A stretch of 64,000 nt of DNA from an uncultured Rhodospirillales bacterium (lineage in GTDB: Bacteria; Pseudomonadota; Alphaproteobacteria; Acetobacterales; Acetobacteraceae), in NCBI GenBank assembly GCA_903928895.1, contig CAIYSR010000125.1, positions 1 to 64,000 on the forward strand. The letters run 5' to 3'. The position numbers were made by a program, and so were the translations under genes. Each line of letters begins with the position of its first letter. Position 1 is the first letter of the stretch. Under the pieces are notes generated by a model. It was given only the letters and a program-made list of their open reading frames with translations, searched no databases and was not told the DNA's origin. Below are positions 9,301 to 57,698 of the stretch, one piece after another.

Positions 9301-10739
9301 TGTCTAGCTCCAACATCAACTTCCGTATAACTCCTCGCGCCGTCGATCATGGTCAGTGGTACCAGGACGTAATCCGCGCCGCAGGGCTCGCAGCATACAG
9401 CGAGGTGCCGGGCTGCATGATCATCGAGCCAAATGGCTGCGCCCTGTGGAACCGCATCCGCAACTGCCTCGGCGCGCGCATCGAGGCAACCGGTCACGAG
9501 GACATGATGTTTCCGACGTTGATCCCCTACAGCTACTTCAAGCGTGAGGAGCGTCACATCGAAGGCTTTGCACCAGAACTCGCGATGATCGAGCGACTGC
9601 GTGGCAAGGTGCTGGAGGACCCGTTGTGCCTTCGGCCGACGTCCGAGACAGTGATCTACCGGTATTTCGCCGAGCGTATCCAGACCCGGGCCGACCTGCC
9701 GATAATGATCAACCAATGGGCGAACGTCTTTCGTGTGGAACAACGCACCCTGCCGTTTTTGCGGACTATGGAGTTTCATTGGCAGGAAGGCCACACGGCT
9801 CATTTCAGCGAGGAAGAGGCGCGTGCTGAGGCGCTGCTGATGGGGGAGGAATATCGCCGCTTCATTCAGGACGAGTTGGCGATCCCCTGCATTAGCGGCC
9901 GCAAGACGCCGCGCGAGCGCTTCGCCGGGGCCGTGGACACGTACACCATTGAGAGCCTGATGCCCTCCGGCAAGGCGCTGCAGTGCGCGACCAGCCACTA
10001 CCTCGGCTCGGAGTTCGCCGGCGCATTCGGCGTGCAGTGCATCGGCGCCGGAGGCGCACTGATGCCGGTGCACACGACAAGTTGGGGCATGTCGACGCGC
10101 ATCATCGGCGCCATCATCATGACCCACGCCGACGACCGCGGGATGGTGATGCCGCCACGGATCGCGCCGGTGCAAGTAGCGATTCTTCCAGTCGGCGGCG
10201 CGGACGACGAGGCGATACAGGCAATGGTGCGCGCCGTGCGCGATCAGTTGGCTGCTGTTGGCATCCGAGTGCGTGTGGACGTCTCCGGTGAGCGGATCGG
10301 ACGGCAGCACTATGCCTGGGAGAAGCGAGGCGTGCCGCTGCGGTTGACCATCGGCCGGACGGAGGTTGCTGCAGGCACGGTCACGGTGACCCGGCGTGAT
10401 ACCGGCGAAAAAGTGGTGCTGTCCCTTGCTGGGGTCGAGGAGAAGGTTGCGGCACTGCTGGAGGCCCAGCACCACTCCCTCCTGGGGTGCGCAGCCGGGC
10501 GCCTCGCGGATCGGACGCGGACCATCGAGACGTTGGCAGACCTGGAAGTCGGGCAGGCCGAAGGAGCCGGGCTGTTCGCGGCCGGCTGGGCGGGTGGTGA
10601 GGCAGAGGAAGTGATGCTCAAGGAGCGCTTCGAGACAACAATCCGCTGCATCCCTGACCGTCCCTGCGTGACGCTCCCGCGCTGCTTTCTGACTGGCCAG
10701 CCTGCGCGCGAGCAGGTGCTCATAGCCAAATCGTACTGA
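9301..10739 (+). CDS. proS: Prolyl-tRNA synthetase, archaeal/eukaryotic type (ProS type 3)
   Basis: 479 residues, full length for the short class lacking the bacterial editing insertion. It charges tRNA-Pro with proline. Class II motifs are clear: N-terminal DHGQWYQDVI, motif 2 with RVEQRTLPFLRTMEFHWQEG (the PFLRTxEFxWQEGHTAH block), and motif 3 in the STRIIGAIIMTHADDRG region, followed by PPRIAPVQVAILPVG of the anticodon-binding domain. The C-terminal extension with CIPDRPCVTLPRCF fits the archaeal-type zinc-like domain. GGAGAA precedes the ATG. Most alphaproteobacteria use a bacterial-type ProRS, so this may be a second, acquired copy, perhaps a resistant version. Confidence 0.9.
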
Positions 10740-45329: not shown

Positions 45330-46650
45330 GGTCGAACTCCATCTCGGCCAGCGCGGCGATCGCGGCCTGTGCCGCTTTCTCGGATGCCGGCGGCTCAGGC
45401 GGCTGTGGCTCGGTCGGCGCACTGCGGGCGGAAGGTGCCGCGGGCGGACCGTCGCCGGCCTTATCCAGCGTCACGTACTGGACCTGCATGAAGCGCTTGT
45501 CGCCGCCGTCGGCAGCCGGGATCAGGTTCTCGTCCTCGCGGCGCAGGATGTCGTTCGCCGAGTAGACCCCCATCTGGCGCATCTGCTGGTAGTAGGTGCC
45601 GCGGCTGGCACTGTCCCCGCGCATCAGCGCGTTCATGTTCATCTTGGTGTAGTAGCCAGGCCGGTTCGCGCCGAAGAGCTTGTAGTCGGCCTCGTCTTCG
45701 AACCGCTTGACCCAGGGCGCGATCGAGTCGACCACTACCTCGGTCACCTGCGATTCCGCATTGCTCTTGGACGAGCGATCGAGGCTGGCCACCTTGTGCG
45801 GCGGCACCCCGAACCATCGGCAGATCTCGGTGACCAGGAACTCATTGGTCGCCAGGAACTGCGCCTTCTCGGGCTCGATGCCGATCGGCGTGTACTTCAT
45901 CCCGGCGTCGGCGAAGAACACCCGCTCGCCGCGCACCCCGCGATACAGCTTGTTCAGCGCCGCCTTGACCCGCTTCATCGCCGGCTCGCTCAGCGGCTTG
46001 ACGGACTCGATCACCGCCGAGACGTTCATGCCGTTGCCGAAGAAGCCGGCGCCGAACAGCTGCGCCGCCCGCGCCCAGCCGATCGACTCCGATGCGTATT
46101 CGCAGACGTTGATCCCGACCGGGCCCTCGCCGAACCCTCGGATGTGGAACATATCCATCGGCTGAAGATCGACCGGCGCCAGCACGCCATTGTGGACGCG
46201 GTAGATCATCCCGCCGGTGTCGTCGCGCAGCACGTGCACCCGGCTCGGATGGATCGGCCACAGCGCGACCGGGCGTCCGAGCTGGTCGCGTTCGATCTCG
46301 GCGTAGCCGTTCCCCCAGCGCAGAGCCCAGTGCAGCAGGGATTCCCGAAACTGGAAGCTCGACCACTCCGGGTTTGGCCGCGTCGAGATCAGGGTGTCGA
46401 TCGGATGCGTGCCGGCGCGCTGGCCGCCGCTCTGGCCGGCCCGCATCGCGTTCCAGGGCAGCACGGCGACGGTCTGCGAGATGTAGCGAAGGCACGCCCA
46501 CACGGTCGGAACCGTGATGCAATTGTCCGCGGTGATGACGATGCCGGCCAGCGTGCGCGCGGCGACGGGTATGCGACGCTCGTCGGGGCGTTGCGGATCG
46601 GCGGTCTCGCGCGCGGCAAAGATTGAGGTGAGACGGGAGAAGGCCGACAT
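45319..46650 (-). CDS. Portal protein, HK97 family
   Basis: 443 residues from the ATG at 46650, chosen because it overlaps the large-terminase stop (TGATG). Portal features: VWACLRYISQTVAVLPWNAM, the FGNGMNVSAVIESVKPLSEP core, and YKLFGANRPGYYTKMNMNAL. It forms the dodecamer through which DNA enters. The Pro/Ala-rich tail (GDGPPAAPSARSAPTEPQPP) is not conserved. Confidence 0.92.
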   Translation of the reverse strand: MSAFSRLTSIFAARETADPQRPDERRIPVAARTLAGIVITADNCITVPTVWACLRYISQTVAVLPWNAMRAGQSGGQRAGTHPIDTLISTRPNPEWSSFQFRESLLHWALRWGNGYAEIERDQLGRPVALWPIHPSRVHVLRDDTGGMIYRVHNGVLAPVDLQPMDMFHIRGFGEGPVGINVCEYASESIGWARAAQLFGAGFFGNGMNVSAVIESVKPLSEPAMKRVKAALNKLYRGVRGERVFFADAGMKYTPIGIEPEKAQFLATNEFLVTEICRWFGVPPHKVASLDRSSKSNAESQVTEVVVDSIAPWVKRFEDEADYKLFGANRPGYYTKMNMNALMRGDSASRGTYYQQMRQMGVYSANDILRREDENLIPAADGGDKRFMQVQYVTLDKAGDGPPAAPSARSAPTEPQPPEPPASEKAAQAAIAALAEMEFDLVA

Positions 46651-48521
46651 CAGTACTCGTCCTCCTCGTCTGCCGACGCCAGGGCGTCCTCGTAGCGGCG
46701 CTTCAATTCCTCCCACCTGGGGTGCGAGGGATCGGCAAGTATCTGCTGGTCGATTGCGTCGTCCGGCGCTGGTTGGGCAGGGATCTGCTGCGATTCGGCA
46801 GCTGATTGCAGGCCCAGTTCCACCGCCTGCGCGTCCGTCATCGTCTCGTAGAACGAGGTGCCCATGGAATCCGGGTTGCGGCTCATCAGTGCGACGGCAT
46901 CAAGAGACGCCATCAGCGGGTCAATCTTGCCGGCGCCTGCTGCCTGCTTGGTGATGGTGACCGCGTTGCCTCTCGGTTCGACCCGCGCGTTGCTGACCGC
47001 CCACGCCATCAGCGCCTGGCCGCAGTGCACCAGCGTCCGGTTGGCCAGCTTGACCTCCGCGGTCTTGATCGCGCCGTTCAGCGTCCAGCCCTGGCTGACG
47101 CCGACCACCCTGTCCTTGCCCTCAATCCCGCGCTCGGCCAGCGCATCCACGATGGCGCCGACGCCCATGGGGTCGAGGCCGACCATCGCCAGCAGCCCGC
47201 TGGCGTCGACCGCGGCGACCACGTCGGCAAGCTCGCCAAACGCCAGGTCCATGTCGTCGACCAGGGAAAGCTCTCCGCTCGCCTCCAGGTCGCGCAGCCG
47301 CGGCGCTTCCGCCTTGCGCAGCTCGAGCACCGAGCGATGCGCCCAGGCACGGTTCCACAGCAGCCACCGGCGGGTGCCGATCTCGCGGCCCAGCACCGCC
47401 AGGCCCAACAGATCGTCCAGGCCACCGCCGTCAACCCCGATGCAGATCACCTCACTGCGGGTCACCAGGGCATCGAACGTCAGCGCCGGTTCGGACGCTC
47501 CGGCCCAGTGGTCGACGCCGCGCCAGCGGTCCGAATGCAGCGCCAGGCCAATCTCGATGTTCAGATGCTGGCTGGCCCAGCGAGCGACCTCACCGACGCC
47601 GTCCGAGCGGGCGCCGGCGAAGTCTGACTTCAGCCGGTTGATCGTGATCGATCGATCGCGATTGGGCGTGACCATCCACCACAGCGAGGCATCATGCCAA
47701 GGCGGGGTCTCGCCCGGCTCCGGCACCCGCGCGATGTCCGGCGGGAACTCGTAGAGCACCGGCAGCATCGGCACGTCGGTCACCAGGCCGTCGCGCACGC
47801 CGCGCGCCTTGGCCAGTTCGGAGCGGAACACGCCGGCGGGCGGCCGCTCGCTCTGGGTGGTGATGAAGATGAGGAAGGCCTCGGGGTTCGGCAGCAGGCC
47901 GCCGCGCAGCTGGCCGATGACGCGGTCAGCGTTGTGATCCGAGGATATCTCGTGCAGCTCGTCGATCAGCACGCCGGCCGGCTTGACCCCGGTCACCACG
48001 CTGGTGTCGAAGGTCTTGATGATCAGCGACGCCCGGGTGCGGCGATCGGTGATCTTCTTCAGGTGCTCCTGCACATGCATCCGCTTGGCCAGGAACTGTT
48101 CCGGATCGGCCTCGATCATGCCGACCGCCTGGGAGAAGGCCAGGTCGGACACCATCTTGGTCGGGCCGATCAGCAGGAATTCGGCGCGCGGCCTGGCGTT
48201 CAACAGCAGCGCCGTCAGCATCAGCGCAGCACCGTTGGTCGTCTTGCTGGACTTCTTCGGCACCAGCAGGAACAGTTCGCGGATCATCCGCTCGCGGGTG
48301 GCTGCGTCGAACGAGCCGAACAGCACCCCGACGATCTCGCGGAACCACTCGCCGCCGGCCTCGGCCAGCGCCGGCTTCTCCTCCACATCAGGCAGCCGCA
48401 GCCGGTTCCAGATCGCGATCGCCCGCGCCGCCTCCGGCTTGGCCAGTGGCAGGTCCGGGATCAGCGAGCGCCCGGTGCGGATGCGCTCCTGCCAGTCCGG
48501 GCAGGCCAGCGACCATGCCAC
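46650..48521 (-). CDS. terL: Terminase large subunit
   Basis: 623 residues. ATPase domain with a variant Walker A VPKKSSKTT (87-95), Walker B VLIDELHE (184-191) and coupling TTQSER. The nuclease domain (ICIGVDGGGLDDLLGLAVLG; FGELADVVAAVDASG; VVGVSQGWTLNG) follows. Terminase_1/HK97-type large subunit that cuts and pumps the phage genome. Follows the small subunit by one base and is preceded by an HNH endonuclease, an arrangement typical of cos-packaging phages. Confidence 0.92.
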   Translation of the reverse strand: MAWSLACPDWQERIRTGRSLIPDLPLAKPEAARAIAIWNRLRLPDVEEKPALAEAGGEWFREIVGVLFGSFDAATRERMIRELFLLVPKKSSKTTNGAALMLTALLLNARPRAEFLLIGPTKMVSDLAFSQAVGMIEADPEQFLAKRMHVQEHLKKITDRRTRASLIIKTFDTSVVTGVKPAGVLIDELHEISSDHNADRVIGQLRGGLLPNPEAFLIFITTQSERPPAGVFRSELAKARGVRDGLVTDVPMLPVLYEFPPDIARVPEPGETPPWHDASLWWMVTPNRDRSITINRLKSDFAGARSDGVGEVARWASQHLNIEIGLALHSDRWRGVDHWAGASEPALTFDALVTRSEVICIGVDGGGLDDLLGLAVLGREIGTRRWLLWNRAWAHRSVLELRKAEAPRLRDLEASGELSLVDDMDLAFGELADVVAAVDASGLLAMVGLDPMGVGAIVDALAERGIEGKDRVVGVSQGWTLNGAIKTAEVKLANRTLVHCGQALMAWAVSNARVEPRGNAVTITKQAAGAGKIDPLMASLDAVALMSRNPDSMGTSFYETMTDAQAVELGLQSAAESQQIPAQPAPDDAIDQQILADPSHPRWEELKRRYEDALASADEEDEY

Positions 48522-48522
48522 C

Positions 48523-49098
48523 TCAGTTCACCAGCCCGCGCCACCCGGTGTCGTCGGCCGCGGTCTCGGCGTCGAGACGCTGCTGCTCCTTCTTGCCGAG
48601 CGGTGCGCCAGCGCCGGCCGCAGGCGGAGCCGCATATTCCGACCAGCCGGCCTGGCATTTCAGCCAGAAGATCGAGGCGGTCACCGCCTCCCGACCCGAG
48701 CCAGTGGCGATGGTGAACAGGTTCTGCATCACCTTGACCTTGGCAACCGCGTGGCCGCGATCCAGTTCGCCCCGGTAATGCAGGCGCAGCGTCTTGGCGT
48801 CGATCCGGATCACCCGGGCGATGTCCTCGTGCGGCACGCCGAACCCGGCCATCGCCTCGACCGAGTCGCGTTCCTTCTGGGTCGGCACGATCGGCGCGGC
48901 CGTGCCGAGGGCCGGCTCGCCCGCGATCTTGCGTGCCAGGGCGGCTTCGCCCCGGTCGAGCTCGGCGCGATAGCGCAGCCGAAGAGTCTTGGCGTCGATC
49001 TGCAGCGCCCGGGCGATCTGCGCCTGCGGGACGCCGGCGCCCGCCATGGCCTCGGCCGAGCGGCGCTGATCTTCTGTGGGTTGGTGCAGCTTCCGCAT
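48523..49098 (-). CDS. Terminase small subunit-like, duplicated helix-turn-helix
   Basis: 191 residues from the ATG at 49098. It contains two near-identical 40-residue units: MAGAGVPQAQIARALQIDAK.. and MAGFGVPHEDIARVIRIDAK.., each a helix-turn-helix followed by TLRL(R/H)YR(A/G)ELDRG. The C-terminal helix (VMQNLFTIATGSGREAVTAS, IFWLKCQAGW) is the 'FxLKnr.gW' ending common in small terminases. DNA-binding role at the packaging site is likely. The duplicated head may let one subunit contact two half-sites. Confidence 0.75.
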   Translation of the reverse strand: MRKLHQPTEDQRRSAEAMAGAGVPQAQIARALQIDAKTLRLRYRAELDRGEAALARKIAGEPALGTAAPIVPTQKERDSVEAMAGFGVPHEDIARVIRIDAKTLRLHYRGELDRGHAVAKVKVMQNLFTIATGSGREAVTASIFWLKCQAGWSEYAAPPAAGAGAPLGKKEQQRLDAETAADDTGWRGLVN

Positions 49099-49350
49099 CA
49101 CATGCCTCACTCGAAGCGCCCTGCGGACGGGGCGATCATCTACAGCGGGAGAACCCGGCGGGAAATTCACCCCTCCGGCCACTCCGCAAGCCGCGGCGCC
49201 CGGCGACGTTTTATAAACGGGAACTGCGCGGGAAATTCCCCCGCCGGCCCGGTTCGATTGCGTTTGGCGGGGCACGAAAAAAATCTGCGGCTGACCCCGC
49301 ATCGGTTCGCGCCCCCATGGCAGGGAATTTGACCCTCCCCCCATGGGGGG
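49099..49350. other. HNH-TerS spacer, possible cos region
   Basis: About 250 bases without a gene between HNH and small terminase. It contains the perfect palindrome CCCCCCATGGGGGG (49337-49350) immediately after the HNH stop, with flanking GACC...GGTC making a wider imperfect dyad, and a GGGAAATT(C/T) pair (49158-49163, 49230-49236 as GGAAATTC). cos sites usually lie next to terminase genes; this is the best position but not proven. Confidence 0.35.
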
Positions 49351-49683
49351 TCAGGTCGGCCTCGCCATCCGCGCGGCGCGCTCGGCGATGGTCTTTCGGC
49401 TATGGCACGCGCCGCAGCGCGCCAGGCCGTTGGCGGGGTCGAGCAGGGCGCCGCCGTCCTTGATCTCGTGGATGTGGTCAGCGAACAGTCGGATGCCGCG
49501 CCGTCCAGGGCTGCGGCAGGTCGGGTCTTGGCATCTGCCACCGCTGCGCTCGATAACTGCGGCGCGCCAGGCACGGTGTGCCGGCGTCGCATAGTGGGGG
49601 TCGACGGTCTTCTCCGGGACTGCCGCGACGCGGGTGTCAAAGCGACCAATGCGCGGTGCAAGGGTGGTCAGCTTGGTGGCCAT
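49351..49683 (-). CDS. HNH endonuclease, terminase-associated
   Basis: 110 residues. HNH motif: ADHIHEIKDGGALLDPANG, then LARCGACHSRKT, with zinc cysteines in CQDPTC and CGAC. HNH proteins next to TerS/TerL aid cos cleavage in HK97-like phages. The R-rich C-terminal tail is typical. GGCCATCC precedes the ATG without a strong ribosome site. Confidence 0.9.
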   Translation of the reverse strand: MATKLTTLAPRIGRFDTRVAAVPEKTVDPHYATPAHRAWRAAVIERSGGRCQDPTCRSPGRRGIRLFADHIHEIKDGGALLDPANGLARCGACHSRKTIAERAARMARPT

Positions 49684-50178: not shown

Positions 50179-50922
50179 ATGACCCTTTCCCCCGCCGCCA
50201 CCATTGTGCTGAGCCGCGCCGCAGAGCGCCCGGACCGGCTCCTCCAATTCCATCGCAAGCTGCCGACTGGCGGCCGCCACAAGATGATCGACGCTCTTCT
50301 GCGCGACGGCTTGATCGCCGAGACGAAGGGCGACTACCGGCTCGGGGACGCCTCGGTCCTGATCGAGGACGCCGCCACCGGCCTGATGCTCACCACCCTC
50401 ACCCTCACCGACACCGGCTTCCGCGCCCTGAACCTCGACCCGCCGGGCAGCACGGGGACCCCCGCCACGGTTGCCGACACGGCGCCACACGCGGCTTCTG
50501 CCGAGGCGGTCGCCCAGGAAGCCGCCGCGGTTGCCGACGCCCTCGACGCCGCGACCGTGGCGCCCACGGCGCGGGTCAACCTCCGCACCGCCGCCGCAGC
50601 AGTGCTCGCCGCCTGGGACGACGAGGAGAACCGCACCACCGACATCATCGCCGCCCTCGAAGCGCCGATGGCCAGCCTCCGCGCCCTGCTCGCCGGGCCC
50701 GCGCCGCGCGCCGCCGCCGGCACGCCGCGCGAGGGCACCAAGAAGGGCCAGGTGCTGGCGCTGCTCGGCCGCCCGAACGGCGCATCCGGCACGGAGATCA
50801 TGGACGCCACTGGGTGGAATTCGAACACCACCCGCGGCTTCCTGGCCGGGCTGAAGAAGAAAGGCACGCCGGTGGTCAGCACCAAACAGGACGGTAAGAC
50901 CATCTATAGCGTGGCGGCCTGA
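50179..50922 (+). CDS. DUF3489-containing protein
   Basis: 247 residues. The C-terminal 65 residues (KKGQVLALLGRPNGASGTEI, MDATGWNSNTTRGFLAGLKK) are a DUF3489 domain, a winged-helix-like fold commonly in phage and plasmid genes. The N-terminus (HKMIDALLRDGLIAETKGDY) is another small winged helix. GGAGAACCC precedes the ATG. Both halves suggest DNA binding. Pairs with the 69-residue gene; 5 bases short of the convergent methyltransferase end. Confidence 0.75.
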   Translation: MTLSPAATIVLSRAAERPDRLLQFHRKLPTGGRHKMIDALLRDGLIAETKGDYRLGDASVLIEDAATGLMLTTLTLTDTGFRALNLDPPGSTGTPATVADTAPHAASAEAVAQEAAAVADALDAATVAPTARVNLRTAAAAVLAAWDDEENRTTDIIAALEAPMASLRALLAGPAPRAAAGTPREGTKKGQVLALLGRPNGASGTEIMDATGWNSNTTRGFLAGLKKKGTPVVSTKQDGKTIYSVAA

Positions 50923-50926
50923 CGAC

Positions 50927-52183
50927 TCACGCCGCGCACGTCGCCGCCGCCGGGGCACCTCTGGCGGCGGCGATGTCGTTGAAGACCCGACCCTCGCCGT
51001 CCAGCACCGCCTGACGGCCCGTAAATTGCTGCCAGCGCAGCACGGCAACGTCGCAATAGGCCGGGCTGATCTCTATCGCCACGCAATGCCGGCCCGTGGT
51101 CTCCGCCGCGATGATTGTCGTGCCGCTGCCGCTGAATGGTTCGTAGATCGCATCGCCCGCCGCGCTGCTATTGAGGATCGGCCGGCGCATGCATTCGACC
51201 GGCTTCTGTGTGCTGTGCACCGTCTCGGGGTCTTCGGTCTCGTCGCCGCGCGTTGTGATCGCCCACAGCGTCGATTGGTCCCGCGCGCCCTGCCAGTGAC
51301 CCGTGCCGCCTTTCCGCACCATGTAAAGGCATGGCTCGTGCTGCCAGTGATAGTCGCCGCGGCCCAGCACGAAGCGGGACTTCGCCCACACGATCTGCGA
51401 TCGGACGACGAATTCGGCCGCCTCGAGGCTCTCCATCACCGTGCGCGCGTGCACAGCGGCATGCCAGATGTAGGCAACGTCGCCGGGGAACAGCGCCCAG
51501 GCCTCCCGCCAGTCCGCGCGGTGATCGTTGGTGACCACGCCCGTCCGCTCCGTCGCCGAGACGCCGGCGCGATTGCGCCAGGTAGGATCATAATTCACGC
51601 CGTAAGGTGGATCACTCGCCATGAGGTGCGGCTTCGCGCCGTCCAGCAGCCGTGCCACGTCCACCGCCGAAGTGGCATCGCCACACAGCAGCCGATGCTC
51701 GCCCATGATCCAGAGATCGCCCGGCCGGCTGACCGGGTTGGCCGGCGGCTCCGGCGTATCGTCAGGGTCGGTGGCGCCCGCCGTGGTCTCCAGCAGCCCA
51801 GACAGTTCCTTCAGATCGAAGCCAGTGAGCGCCAGGTCGAAGCCCGCGAGCCGAAGCTCGCCAAGCTCCATTTGCAGCAAGCTGTCGTCCCATTCCGCCC
51901 AGGTGGCGGAGCGGTTGGCCAGCAGCCGGAACGCCTTGATCTGCGCTTCGCTGAGATCATCCGCCAGTGCCACCGGCACGTCCGTCAGCCCAAGCCGCAG
52001 CGCCGCCTTGAGACGCAGGTGGCCATCGACGACGCTGCCGTCCGATCGCGCGACGATCGGGATCCGAAAGCCGAACTCACGGATCGCCCCGCACATTCGA
52101 TCGACCGCGGCATCATTCTTCCGCGGGTTCCGATCGTAAGGGATCAGGCGCGAGACGGGCCATTGCTCGACCGTCAGCATCAT
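50927..52183 (-). CDS. ParB-like domain fused to N6-adenine-type DNA methyltransferase
   Basis: 418 residues. Residues about 5-90 are a ParB/Srx-like domain (LIPYDRNPRKNDAAVDRM; VVDGHLRLKAALRLG with the GHxRxxA core). The methyltransferase has catalytic DPPY at 191-194 and FSGSGTT near residue 370, with the DPPY before the SAM motif, i.e. beta-class order. Methylates DNA, probably adenine; sites unknown. Its start overlaps the stop of the next gene (ATGATG). Confidence 0.88.
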   Translation of the reverse strand: MMLTVEQWPVSRLIPYDRNPRKNDAAVDRMCGAIREFGFRIPIVARSDGSVVDGHLRLKAALRLGLTDVPVALADDLSEAQIKAFRLLANRSATWAEWDDSLLQMELGELRLAGFDLALTGFDLKELSGLLETTAGATDPDDTPEPPANPVSRPGDLWIMGEHRLLCGDATSAVDVARLLDGAKPHLMASDPPYGVNYDPTWRNRAGVSATERTGVVTNDHRADWREAWALFPGDVAYIWHAAVHARTVMESLEAAEFVVRSQIVWAKSRFVLGRGDYHWQHEPCLYMVRKGGTGHWQGARDQSTLWAITTRGDETEDPETVHSTQKPVECMRRPILNSSAAGDAIYEPFSGSGTTIIAAETTGRHCVAIEISPAYCDVAVLRWQQFTGRQAVLDGEGRVFNDIAAARGAPAAATCAA

Positions 52184-53574
52184 GCGGCCTTTCCTGGCTG
52201 GCGCTCGGCAGCGATCGCGGGATAGCTCCGTCCATCGCCGTCGAGCACCGGCGCGACCCCGGGATAGATCTCGCTCCACCGCCGCAGCGCCACGTCGGCA
52301 TAAACCGGCGCCAACTCGATGGCGCGGACCGTGCGGCCGGTCATCTCGCCGGAGATGATGGTTGTGCCCGAGCCGCCGAACGGCTCGAAGCAGATCGCAC
52401 CAGGATCGGTGTAGGTTTCCATGACGAACGCCGGCAGCTTCACCGGGAACACCGCTGGATGCTCAGTCTCGATGCCGCGCGCCTTGTGCCGGGTGATGCG
52501 CAGCACGTTGTCGGGGATGCGCATGTCCTGCACGCCCTGGCCGGCGTGGGTCCATTCGCCGACATGGCCGTTCTTGGCGCGCATTCCGCCGTGGGAGTCG
52601 TTCACGTGACCGGCCCAGATGCACGGGATGATCTTGTTGGCCTGCCGCGCGATGCGGTTGAAGTGGAAGACGAACTCGAACGACGGCGCCAGCCGCCCGT
52701 TCCAGTCGCCAGGCAGGCCGGGGCCCTGATCCCAAACCTGGAGCCCGAACCGCCGCCAGCCCTGCGTGCGCATCCATTCGATCCAGGCCTGCCAGTACGG
52801 CTGCCATTCGCCATCGGTGTGCACTAGCCCCAGGTTCACCAGCACCTGGCCGTCGGCCGCCATCGGCAGCTGCGCAAACACGCCCTGCATCAGCTTGTCC
52901 CAGTCGGCGATACCGCCGGTGGTGTAGTTGCGCTGATTGCCATAGGGCGGCGATGTGAAGCAGAGCGCCGCCTTCTCGTCGCCCATCACGCGCGCGACTG
53001 CCGCGGCGTCGGTGGAGTCCCCGCACAGCAGACGATGCCGGCCGAGATGCCAGATGTCGCCAACACGGACCACCGGATCGGCAACCGCCGCCGGCACGTC
53101 GTCGGCCACGTCCGCGTCGGGGTTCTCGGCAGCGTTCGTAGCAGCGGGCACTGGCGCCAGCAGGCTGGCCAACTCGGCATCGGCAAAGCCGATGACGTCG
53201 AGCGAGAACCCGCCGAGCTTCAGCTCCGACAGTTCGATGCGCAGGAGGTCCTCGTCCCACCCGGCATTCAGCGCCAGCTTGTTGTCCGCGAGGATGTAGG
53301 CGCGCTTCTGTGCGTCAGACCAGCCCCGCGCCACCATGACGGGGACATCGTCGATGCCGAGTTTCTGCGCAGCCAGCACTCGGCCGTGGCCGGCGATGAT
53401 GGTGCCCGACTCATCGGCCAGAACCGGGTTGGTGAAGCCGAATTCCCGAATGCTCGCCGCAATCTGCGCGACCTGTTCGGCGCTATGCGTGCGCGCGTTC
53501 CGGGCGTACGGCACCAGTCGCGCCAATGGCCAGCGCTCCGTCCTATCGGCCGGCCATAGCGACGTTTCGATCAT
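52180..53574 (-). CDS. ParB-like domain fused to N4-cytosine/N6-adenine-type DNA methyltransferase
   Basis: 464 residues. ParB-like domain at about 15-110 (LVPYARNARTHSAEQVAQIA; IIAGHGRVLAAQKLG). The catalytic motif is TSPPY at 207-211, and FGGSGTTIIS lies near residue 420. TSPPY is the form usual in N4-cytosine enzymes, different from its DPPY neighbour, so the pair may mark different bases. No restriction endonuclease adjoins, so this is a solitary modification module, perhaps for escape from host restriction. Confidence 0.88.
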   Translation of the reverse strand: MIETSLWPADRTERWPLARLVPYARNARTHSAEQVAQIAASIREFGFTNPVLADESGTIIAGHGRVLAAQKLGIDDVPVMVARGWSDAQKRAYILADNKLALNAGWDEDLLRIELSELKLGGFSLDVIGFADAELASLLAPVPAATNAAENPDADVADDVPAAVADPVVRVGDIWHLGRHRLLCGDSTDAAAVARVMGDEKAALCFTSPPYGNQRNYTTGGIADWDKLMQGVFAQLPMAADGQVLVNLGLVHTDGEWQPYWQAWIEWMRTQGWRRFGLQVWDQGPGLPGDWNGRLAPSFEFVFHFNRIARQANKIIPCIWAGHVNDSHGGMRAKNGHVGEWTHAGQGVQDMRIPDNVLRITRHKARGIETEHPAVFPVKLPAFVMETYTDPGAICFEPFGGSGTTIISGEMTGRTVRAIELAPVYADVALRRWSEIYPGVAPVLDGDGRSYPAIAAERQPGKAA

Positions 53575-54723: not shown

Positions 54724-54878
54724 TGAAGAGTGCTCGGCCGCGAGGGTGGAGAGGGGGTCCTATATATATGATATATATAACTATTCATCTCTTCAAACAC
54801 ATCAACTAGGTACTCTCTCCCAGCGACCGCGGCACGTATATCCACGCGCCCGCGTGAAGAGTTGAAAAGTTGAAAAGT
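54724..54878. repeat. Iteron-like repeats with AT-rich palindrome (possible replication origin)
   Basis: TGAAGAGT occurs at 54724-54731 and, with two TGAAAAGT copies, as three perfect tandem 8-bp units at 54855-54878. An inverted CTCTTCA is at 54789-54795. Between them lies TATATATAT-G-ATATATATA (54761-54779), an almost exclusively A/T palindrome in a GC-rich genome. This repeat plus AT pattern beside the primase gene suits an origin; operator use is the alternative. Confidence 0.5.
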
Positions 54879-54903: not shown

Positions 54904-57222
54904 TCAGGGGGCGTCACGGTTCAAGCTCTCCTGCTGGTCGATCGCGATTATCCAGGTGGTGTCCGGGCCCGAGGTGTTCGGCGCGAGCTCGATGGCGATC
55001 TGCTTGCTGTCGAGCAGCGTGGCGACGACATCGTCCCGCTCATGCTTCGAGAGGAACTGCGTTCGCCGGGTGAATTCGGTACGTCGGATCCGCCCAGCCA
55101 AGCGGACCACGTCGAGCACCTTCTTCAGCCGGGCGTGGGCGGGGGTGTCAGCAACGAACCGGTCGGCCTGCTTCATGAGCGTGCCGATACAGTGCTCGAC
55201 CACCCGTGCCGCCCAGGCCACGTCCCGGGCTTCTGTCACCGGTTGTGCTGGGTTGCGGCTGATGGCGGCCAGCATGGCGAGTTTGGCCGCGTTCTCGGCG
55301 TGGCGGCCGAACAGGGCGGTGGCGTAGGTTCCTTCGTGGGCGCGCAGGCGCATTGTCGCCTGGTCGCGGACGAGGGCCATCTCCCGTTCGGCGTCCGCCG
55401 TCAGCGGCACGGTGTAGGGGGTGATGGTGGCGCCGGCCTGCATGCCGTCGGCCAGATTGCCGCCATGGTCATGATCCGGATTGCCGGCGGCGATGGCCTG
55501 CAGCGCAGCGACGAGCTCGGCCGATGGATCGGCAAGCGCCGGCGCGCCATTGCGTGCGGGGTAGTGCTCATCCGTGAGGAACACCAAGAACCGCGCGAGC
55601 GATCCATCGGCAAGCGCGGTTCCCTCGATGGCCTGCCAGAACGGGCCGGGCACGCTGACGCCCCAGACGCAAGCGCAGGGCTGCTGGATGGTGCTTCGTG
55701 GACGCGCCTTCTGGTCGGCGTATTCGGCGCCGATGTATGGGTCCGCCGCCGATGTGTAGAGCTTGGTGAGTTCGGCCCAGATGGCCGATTTGTGGATTGG
55801 CGCTCGCGGGTTCAGGACCAGGCGGAGGAATTGTCCGAACTCGTCGACCTGGAACAAGCGCGCCGGGTGCAGCTGGAGCGAAGTGAGCAGCCCGGCCGAC
55901 GAAGCGAAGTCCTCGCCGCCAAGATAGCGATCGAGCCCGGCGGCATAGAGCGCTCGTTTGGTGCAGCGCCGGGCGTGATCCTTGCCACCGCCGCTATCGG
56001 CGATGCCGATGGCGTAGACGTTGCTGCGCAGGTCAGTGGGGGTGCGGTAGCGGCGGCCGGCGACGGCGCCGACCAGGCACAGCGCCGCGCCCAGGGCGAG
56101 GAAGGGTTGCGGGCTGACCGCGGTGCTGGTGGCGTAGTCGATGAACAGGCGCAACACGCCGTCGACCTCGAGCAGCTCCGGCGGCACCCGATAGGGTTTG
56201 GGGGATGGCGGCGCCGCCCGCGGCTGTGCCGCAACCTTCGCCAGGAGCCCGGCGGCCGGATGTGGTCGCACCGCCTGTTCGGCCGCGACGGCGTTCAGGG
56301 TGACCTCCGGCGGTGGCACCCAGCCCCGTTCGATCGCCATGGCATAGATGCTGCCAGCGCCGATGCTGTGCGGCCGCAGCCGCAACCAGCGGCGCTCGGG
56401 TGTGTCGCTGCGACCGGAGCCGCCCGATTTGCTCGACTGCCGCGACCATGCGCACCAGAGGTCCTTGCCCTCGTCGCCGAGCGCCGCCTTGAGCGCGTTG
56501 CCGATGGTGATCCAGGACGTGCCGTCGAGATCATCGTTGGGGATGAACGCCAGCGCCGATTGCACCGCCTCGAGGGTGCCGCGCGGGTCGGAGGGTCCAT
56601 GCCATGCTGTGCCTGGCGCGGCGTCGCCGATCAGCGTGCGCGGCTTCATCTCCGCGGGGATCATGGCATAGGCCCGATCGAGCCAGGCCAGCACCTGTGC
56701 CTCGGCCACCACCGGCAGCCCGCTGAGCGGCACGTCGAGCAGGGTGTCCTCGGGCCATTCGTAGGGCCGCTCGGTGCCGGGGTGGATGGCGTGGGCGACG
56801 AATTGCTGGCCGCGGGCGAGCACCTCGAGCGGGTGGCGCTTGCGCCCGGCAAACGGCGTTTCGGCGCGGTAGACGAGCATCCGTTTCGGTGCCTGGCCGA
56901 TGCGGATGCAGGGCGTGTCGCCCAGCATGGTGGCGGCGAGATCGGTCAGCGCGATCGCCAATTCGCCATCGAGGGTGTCGATGTCGAGCGCGACGACGGC
57001 GCCGCAGGCAATGCCGACGCCGCAGTCGGGCCAATGCCGCCAGATGTCGAGCTCGACGTCCGTGGTCGCCCGGTCGCAGTGCCGCGTCCAGTCGGGATAG
57101 GGCTTCCACTCGCCCTGGGTGAACCGGCCCGGTACCTTGCTGTCCGGCATGATCGGGATCACCGCGTAGCCGTTGTCGACCAGCCGGGCACCGTGCTCCG
57201 CCATATTCGAGGGTTGAGTCAT
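54904..57222 (-). CDS. Primase-polymerase / DUF3987 replication protein
   Basis: 772 residues from the ATG at 57222, which overlaps the preceding stop (ATGA). N-terminal prim-pol domain (1-180; DID at 80-82 as catalytic acids). Then a PriCT_2-like part (ALAFIPNDDLDGTSWITIGN) and from about 330 a DUF3987 region. Its nucleotide-binding site ADSGGGKDHAR has D where Walker A normally has S/T. Likely starts replication. Confidence 0.82.
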   Translation of the reverse strand: MTQPSNMAEHGARLVDNGYAVIPIMPDSKVPGRFTQGEWKPYPDWTRHCDRATTDVELDIWRHWPDCGVGIACGAVVALDIDTLDGELAIALTDLAATMLGDTPCIRIGQAPKRMLVYRAETPFAGRKRHPLEVLARGQQFVAHAIHPGTERPYEWPEDTLLDVPLSGLPVVAEAQVLAWLDRAYAMIPAEMKPRTLIGDAAPGTAWHGPSDPRGTLEAVQSALAFIPNDDLDGTSWITIGNALKAALGDEGKDLWCAWSRQSSKSGGSGRSDTPERRWLRLRPHSIGAGSIYAMAIERGWVPPPEVTLNAVAAEQAVRPHPAAGLLAKVAAQPRAAPPSPKPYRVPPELLEVDGVLRLFIDYATSTAVSPQPFLALGAALCLVGAVAGRRYRTPTDLRSNVYAIGIADSGGGKDHARRCTKRALYAAGLDRYLGGEDFASSAGLLTSLQLHPARLFQVDEFGQFLRLVLNPRAPIHKSAIWAELTKLYTSAADPYIGAEYADQKARPRSTIQQPCACVWGVSVPGPFWQAIEGTALADGSLARFLVFLTDEHYPARNGAPALADPSAELVAALQAIAAGNPDHDHGGNLADGMQAGATITPYTVPLTADAEREMALVRDQATMRLRAHEGTYATALFGRHAENAAKLAMLAAISRNPAQPVTEARDVAWAARVVEHCIGTLMKQADRFVADTPAHARLKKVLDVVRLAGRIRRTEFTRRTQFLSKHERDDVVATLLDSKQIAIELAPNTSGPDTTWIIAIDQQESLNRDAP

Positions 57223-57698
57223 TGCCCCGCCGCGGCATCGGAGATCGGAAGCCATGCATGCTCGCCGCACCAATCATTCTGCTCGGTGATGATGTTCAGC
57301 GACGGCCGCCGGCTGTGTTCCTGGCGATGAACGCCACAGACGTTGACGCAGGGGGATTTCGGGGAGACCACCCACGGGGCGGCGCTGTCATGGCCCCACC
57401 AGCGGCAGGTCGCACAGGTCGGGGTGCCGGAGACCATCGCAATGCCTGCAGGATCGGCGGGATCGGCGACCCCTGCGAGATCGGTGCACACCACCGCCTG
57501 CGCGATGACTTGCCTGATCTCGCTGATCGCGATCATTCCCACATTGGGATGGCGCCGGAGCATCATTATCGGCGTGTCGGCAAGCTCGCCCAGCGTGTCG
57601 TAATGCGGCTTCAGCGCATTCAGAACCCGTGGGGACCAGAGGCGGATTTCACTAATCCGAAGGTCACGCCAGGCATTCAGTTCGGGGATGTTGCTCAT
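57219..57698 (-). CDS. RNA polymerase alpha-CTD-like protein with cysteine motif
   Basis: 159 residues. Residues 13-60 (ISEIRLWSPRVLNALKPHYD, then TLGELADTPIMMLRRHPNVG and AISEIRQVIA) closely follow the alpha C-terminal domain pattern of RNA polymerase (helix-hairpin-helix; 'L.vR..N.LK', 'NlG..sl.EI'). The second half has CATCRWW and further cysteines that could bind zinc. It may contact promoter DNA or sigma factors during early expression. Coupled to the primase gene by ATGA. Confidence 0.65.
   Translation of the reverse strand: MSNIPELNAWRDLRISEIRLWSPRVLNALKPHYDTLGELADTPIMMLRRHPNVGMIAISEIRQVIAQAVVCTDLAGVADPADPAGIAMVSGTPTCATCRWWGHDSAAPWVVSPKSPCVNVCGVHRQEHSRRPSLNIITEQNDWCGEHAWLPISDAAAGQ

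Follow-up and report, generated by a model that had tools for sequence, protein, structure and literature searches.

The window analysed here is a stretch of 64,000 nucleotides from an uncultured Rhodospirillales bacterium of the Acetobacteraceae (contig CAIYSR010000125.1, positions 1 to 64,000 of the forward strand). On its minus strand, at 50927–53574, lie two intact genes that each encode a ParB-type domain followed by a beta-class amino-methyltransferase (MTase), referred to here as A (upstream) and B (downstream). Gene A (52180–53574, 464 aa) carries the catalytic motif TSPPY and is predicted to make N4-methylcytosine (m4C), and gene B (50927–52183, 418 aa) carries DPPY, is predicted to make N6-methyladenine (m6A) and is of the type that we call B1. 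The two overlap by the four bases ATGA (52180–52183), with the stop codon of A being the TGA and B starting at the same place, and a longer, GTG-started frame for B (to 52279) is unnecessary to explain the gene. The original prediction had described two overlapping ParB–MTase genes with these two different motifs, and this is confirmed; there is no sign of decay in either sequence. The two proteins are 35% identical.

In the A protein the ParB-fold domain spans approximately residues 10–141 (53152–53547, minus strand, as are all the motifs given here) and is recognised both by fold match and by Pfam ParB_N at residues 28–94 (28.1 bits, against a cut-off of 26.3). Within it, GHGR (53380–53391) is the GxxR P-motif of the ParB-CTPase fold, with G62, H63 and R65 invariant. 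The MTase domain (N6_N4_Mtase, 54.5 bits) has TSPPY as motif IV at 52942–52956, invariant in 14/14 aligned A proteins, and the SAM-binding motif I, EPFGGSGT, at 52363–52386. The B protein has its ParB-fold domain at approximately residues 2–135 (51779–52180), the P-motif GHLR at 52013–52024 (G54, H55 and R57 invariant), DPPY at 51602–51613 and motif I, EPFSGSGT, at 51119–51142. Its N6_N4_Mtase score is 68.6 bits; its ParB_N score of 20.8 lies under the Pfam cut-off of 26.3, and despite this its ParB identity is backed by strong matches to PHROG ParB families and by the predicted fold. Motif IV lies ahead of motif I in A and B, which is the beta-class order, and as TSPPY and DPPY are each followed by motif I, both proteins are beta-class amino-MTases, with the fold of the CcrM, MboIIA and PvuII enzymes (Z 15–20). 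Unlike a canonical ParB of a ParABS system, A and B have an MTase as their C-terminal part, and no ParB dimerisation domain follows the HTH.

AlphaFold2 models (mean pLDDT 77.3 for B and 69.4 for A, with residues 310–375 of A at low confidence) match the N-terminus of B to M. xanthus ParB–CTP-gamma-S (Z 14.2 over 91 residues) and that of A to Noc/ParB (Z 14.5 over 91 residues). These modelled folds and the GxxR motifs suggest that the ParB domains of A and B may bind nucleotide; of 28 purified ParB-fold proteins, 17 are reported to have bound no NTP (PMC12704722). With regard to the MTase domains, the nearest solved sequences to A are TTHA0409 (9.3e-12) and the PvuII m4C MTase (2e-7), and its fold matches tie m6A and m4C enzymes (BceJIV 18.1 and MboIIA 17.9 vs PvuII 17.4 and TTHA0409 17.1), so its assignment to m4C is made from motif IV and sequence similarity. 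B is nearest in sequence to 9c3u/8urk (BceJIV), followed by TTHA0409 and CcrM, and its best fold match is CcrM (Z 19.8), with M1.HpyAVI also among the fold neighbours. It is likely, as a prediction from sequence, that A makes m4C and B makes m6A. That the pair may mark two different bases had been proposed at the outset, and motif IV and the nearest solved enzymes support this as a prediction.

The resemblance of B to CcrM also bears on a regulatory role, in which the pair would mimic or alter host methylation (e.g. the GANTC methylation of CcrM) and thereby time the expression of phage genes. Regulation of early genes had been among the original suggestions, and the analysis turned up evidence neither way. 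GANTC-specific MTases do occur in alphaproteobacterial phages, but those reported are of another kind, with NPPY/F/W motifs (PMC5537653), and the AmM-1 protein linked to GANTC, YP_009146999 (PMC6536676), differs from the AmM-1 relative of B, YP_009147004. We regard this role as very unlikely. A GANTC specificity for B by way of its similarity to AmM-1 was likewise rejected, the ParB–MTase of AmM-1 being YP_009147004 (gp67) and the printed accession YP_009146999 another protein.

The pair sits in a prophage, between replication and terminase genes. Following the direction of minus-strand transcription, A is preceded by genes for a Sak4-like annealing protein, an SSB-like protein, a Cas4-type exonuclease, a helicase and a primase of the prim-pol type (54904–57273), and B is followed by those for an HNH endonuclease, a terminase small subunit-like protein (48523–49344, minus strand, phrog_309), the terminase large subunit (46650–48521, minus strand), a portal, a head protease and a major head protein. 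A short AT-rich stretch (tatatatatcatatatata) at 54730–54800, between the primase gene and the next gene, is odd in a GC-rich phage and is possibly an origin or regulatory site. On the plus strand, a DUF3489 gene (50179–50922) converges with B and stops 4 bases short of where B ends; DUF3489 was also seen in 1/76 ORFs downstream of related loci. Terminase genes recur downstream in related loci, with a GpA ATPase in 20/76 ORFs from 34 loci. The absence of an adjoining restriction enzyme, which had also been claimed, holds for the scanned neighbours, among which no restriction enzyme family was recognised and only the phage-type HNH gene (49351–49683, minus strand, matching phage HNH families of PHROGs) was present, 1.2 kb downstream of the pair and ahead of the terminase genes. 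The scanned neighbours thus hold no cognate restriction endonuclease gene of the kind found beside the MTase in a Type II restriction–modification system.

This genome has four A–B pairs, one in the window and three on other contigs (C128, C132 and C54) that are 90–97% identical to each other per domain and distinct from the window pair. Terminase genes lie a few kilobases downstream of the C128 and C132 pairs, and contig C54 ends soon after its pair. Fragments related to gene A are found on a further contig (C104:1216–1906 and 10298–10579), in pieces 43–69% identical, and are perhaps the remains of a decayed fifth copy.

Fusions of ParB and MTase domains at this position have been published before. 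ParB–N6N4-MTase fusions are enriched in prophages (PMC12704722), and 36 ParB–MTase fusions have been described in Paracoccus prophages, every one of them located ahead of the terminase genes (PMC6536676). Over nearly their full length, both window proteins match phrog_498 (E 6e-134 and 3.8e-106), with the N-terminal ParB-fold domain with GxxR and the C-terminal N6_N4_Mtase with intact motifs that mark this family, and both match PADLOC PDLC03229 ‘MTase_II’, which also resembles them in its prophage location. In the available descriptions the phrog_498-type fusions appear as single genes, whereas here the TSPPY type is tied to a DPPY partner and the MTase of B is exchanged. The window also resembles the ParB-Tls phage locus, in which MTase and ParB genes adjoin terminase genes (PMC6536676, citing earlier work), and here too ParB and modification genes lie beside terminase genes in a phage; fused m6A/m4C and separate m5C MTases are described for that locus, but in the accessible text no ordered pair of TSPPY and DPPY fusions (PMC6536676).

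Among individual phages, Gp24–Gp25 of Acidithiobacillus phage AcaML1 offers a parallel in arrangement. The two follow the A–B order, share 59% and 41% identity with window A and window B, and have a primase gene on one side and terminase genes on the other, although the partner is of type B2 and the annotation reads only ‘DNA modification methylase’. BCE_0392, from a Bacillus cereus prophage, is a fusion of ParB and an adenine MTase, and the next-numbered gene, BCE_0393, encodes a second MTase, which is however an m5C enzyme (PMC3459991). BCE_0392 is reported to have weak m6A activity, to give no resistance to the enzymes tried, and to have a nicking-linked activity (PMC3459991). The met1/met2 genes of Wolbachia phage WO encode ParB-like and DNA adenine MTase fusions (PMC3089641), with records 43–44% identical to window B, but are reported as one such gene per prophage (PMC3089641). 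A gene called ParB in a Staphylococcus phage (PMC10286716) has a relative annotated as a DNA modification methylase, and may itself be a ParB–MTase fusion and not a partition gene. In the literature text that was accessible, neither the ordered TSPPY–DPPY unit nor its domain exchange was found, nor, in the methylome literature, any usable recognition motif for a phage ParB–MTase.

Relatives were drawn from IMG/VR, from genomes within the bacterium's own family, class and phylum, from a GTDB species scan and from phage records, the loci being collected by similarity to window A or B, with many from Acetobacteraceae. Duplicate views of the genome's own loci (L005–L008, L231, L233–L237) were dropped before counting, as were A frames whose MTase end is incomplete, and counts are also given after dereplication at 90%, because a species may be represented twice, once in each genome collection. 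The MTase end is complete in 162 TSPPY ParB–MTase genes. In 153 of them a DPPY ParB–MTase comes next on that strand, in two a partial ParB–MTase does so, and in four none was seen, with three not judgeable (153/157 of the testable genes). After dereplication, 57 of 63 A genes are followed by B, one by a fragment and four by none, with one not testable (57/61). The TSPPY ParB–MTase is therefore nearly always paired, and the recurrence of the A–B order is beyond chance. The start of B overlaps the stop of A in 59/75 pairs, six as ATGA and 53 by 11 bp. DPPY ParB–MTase genes are frequently single (156 paired, 73 single and 50 undecided).

The four dereplicated A genes without a following B can be described individually. 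L183 is broken up by foreign sequence; L211 is a reversed pair, with DPPY before TSPPY, and its two ParB domains are 74% identical; L017 is a genuine single A, adjoining a terminase gene; and L032 is a distant, long-branch TSPPY protein with no B partner. For L200, which the counts treat as untestable, 904 bp are visible after A, and a reading of the frames by eye only shows no B there. The idea that an m5C MTase takes the place of A next to single B genes was considered and is unsupported, as a regular-expression search for C5-MTases (uncalibrated on known enzymes) found none in 100 paired, four A-only, 72 single-B and 13 undecided loci. A single 214-kb IMG/VR contig carries four DPPY-side ParB–MTase loci 50–65 kb apart (L043, L045, L051 and L075), and may represent a concatemer or a chain of prophages.

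Among 77 non-redundant pairs, TSPPY and motif I are present in every A protein (77/77 for each), and GHxR in 76 A and 77 B proteins; in this set the DPPY of B was a selection criterion, and the motif I expression missed five B proteins. Since the motifs are kept in both A and B across these pairs, a pseudo-enzyme partner of the METTL3–METTL14 kind was rejected. The same conservation bears on a reading in which methylation is secondary. The proteins would then nick or tether DNA under NTP control during replication or packaging, and the MTase would serve to mark self. This would suit the location beside the terminase genes, the ParB fold in both proteins and the nicking-associated concatenation reported for BCE_0392 (PMC3459991; PMC5512222), but both proteins strictly conserve their catalytic MTase motifs and the MTase domains are no less conserved than the ParB domains, and we consider it distinctly unlikely.

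The domains of these proteins recombine. In B genes of the non-redundant pairs, ParB domains at least 80% identical are accompanied by MTase domains less than 50% identical in 54/359 comparisons (the fragmentary B of L181 figures among these), and in A genes this occurs in 0/283, the lowest MTase identity being 63%. The cleanest case is that of L124 (type B1) and L184 (type B2), whose B proteins are 96% identical in ParB and 41% in MTase: between the beginning of A and the last part of the ParB domain of B, their DNA aligns over 2097 columns at 86.8% identity, and the similarity then breaks in the linker of B and resumes at 90.9% over 253 bp past the gene. Window B and L124 B have the opposite pattern, with ParB 38% and MTase 78% identical. 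It follows from these domain comparisons that the ParB domain has been exchanged in A as well as in B, and the MTase in B, and that the MTase of A, in this sample, has not.

Trees were quick searches with SH-aLRT support only. In the tree of MTases from 118 representatives, a single branch (support 91) sets the TSPPY proteins apart as one clade, and paired DPPY proteins occupy several places. In the ParB tree, A is scattered, with 12 changes required; the ParB domain of the A of L225, for instance, is 66% identical to that of window B vs 42% to that of window A. Partner types, which are named throughout by the context of motif IV, are B1 in 97, B2 in 52 and other in five of 154 pairs; naming by the motif I letter instead gives E/D/? 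80/67/7 and disagrees with this. The B partners belong to at least two lineages, B1 and B2 being about 40% identical, and they alternate on the A tree, with 12 partner-type changes in all; starred branches force at least eight changes for B1, and the same holds for B2.

This alternation weighs on another explanation of the pair, namely that A and B serve opposite strands of one asymmetric site (C vs A), perhaps as a heterodimer via their ParB domains. Pairs of MTases that share an asymmetric site have precedents, and M1.HpyAVI, a fold neighbour of B, belongs to such a pair; near-obligate pairing in a fixed order, an overlap that would suit 1:1 synthesis, and two partners that both appear active judging by their motifs also speak for it. 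However, the MTase of A stays at least 63% identical where its ParB is at least 80% identical while its partner alternates several times between B1 and B2, so a shared site would need to survive these swaps, and DPPY types are common as singles. On this evidence a single shared site seems unlikely.

The explanation that we prefer, and consider on balance somewhat probable, is that of a prophage operon for protective modification, in which a constant A (predicted m4C) is combined with an exchangeable B (predicted m6A), both carrying ParB-fold domains. The two translationally coupled fusions would form one DNA-modification operon between the replication and packaging genes, with A making N4-methylcytosine and B N6-methyladenine at short sequence targets, and the ParB-fold domains would bind nucleotide and either keep the enzymes on DNA or spread them along it. 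Replicated phage DNA would be methylated before or during packaging, and the double mark would shield it against restriction in the next host. A would be the constant part, and in B recombination exchanges the MTase module while leaving the ParB domain ahead of it in place, a swap which would alter the protected sequence with the rest kept; B1 and B2 may nevertheless share a target despite their divergence. Given that both active sites are kept, that the setting is a prophage with no recognised adjoining restriction enzyme, and that one MTase is swapped, protection against restriction fits best. Protection of phage DNA had been among the original suggestions, and the position beside the terminase genes, the orphan status and the exchange of B's MTase are consistent with it, the role itself being inferred. 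More broadly, the best reading of A–B would be an anti-restriction or packaging-linked modification operon, and the fact that A stays the same is compatible with either a threat that is itself constant or a distinct job for this enzyme, for instance as a mark of self or for packaging.

A more specific and doubtful version of the protective operon is that of a cassette with two slots, which keeps address and payload in modules of their own. The ParB-fold domains would load on phage DNA as NTP-dependent clamps, A would supply an invariant ‘core’ cytosine mark common to many phages, and B would take adenine MTase modules that can be interchanged, each altering which sequence is protected. Restriction systems shuffle specificity modules likewise, but here the shuffling would be on the phage side.

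Fusions of ParB to phage MTases are common. The frequent swapping of the second enzyme while its ParB-like domain stays suggests modular DNA marking by phages, and these natural one-domain swaps, between closely related phage regions that differ in one MTase module, offer clean comparisons. Through them one can ask directly whether host range in the face of restriction is set by the MTase, and whether the ParB domain directs the MTase. If A does make m4C across its clade, this would be a widespread cytosine mark of phages.
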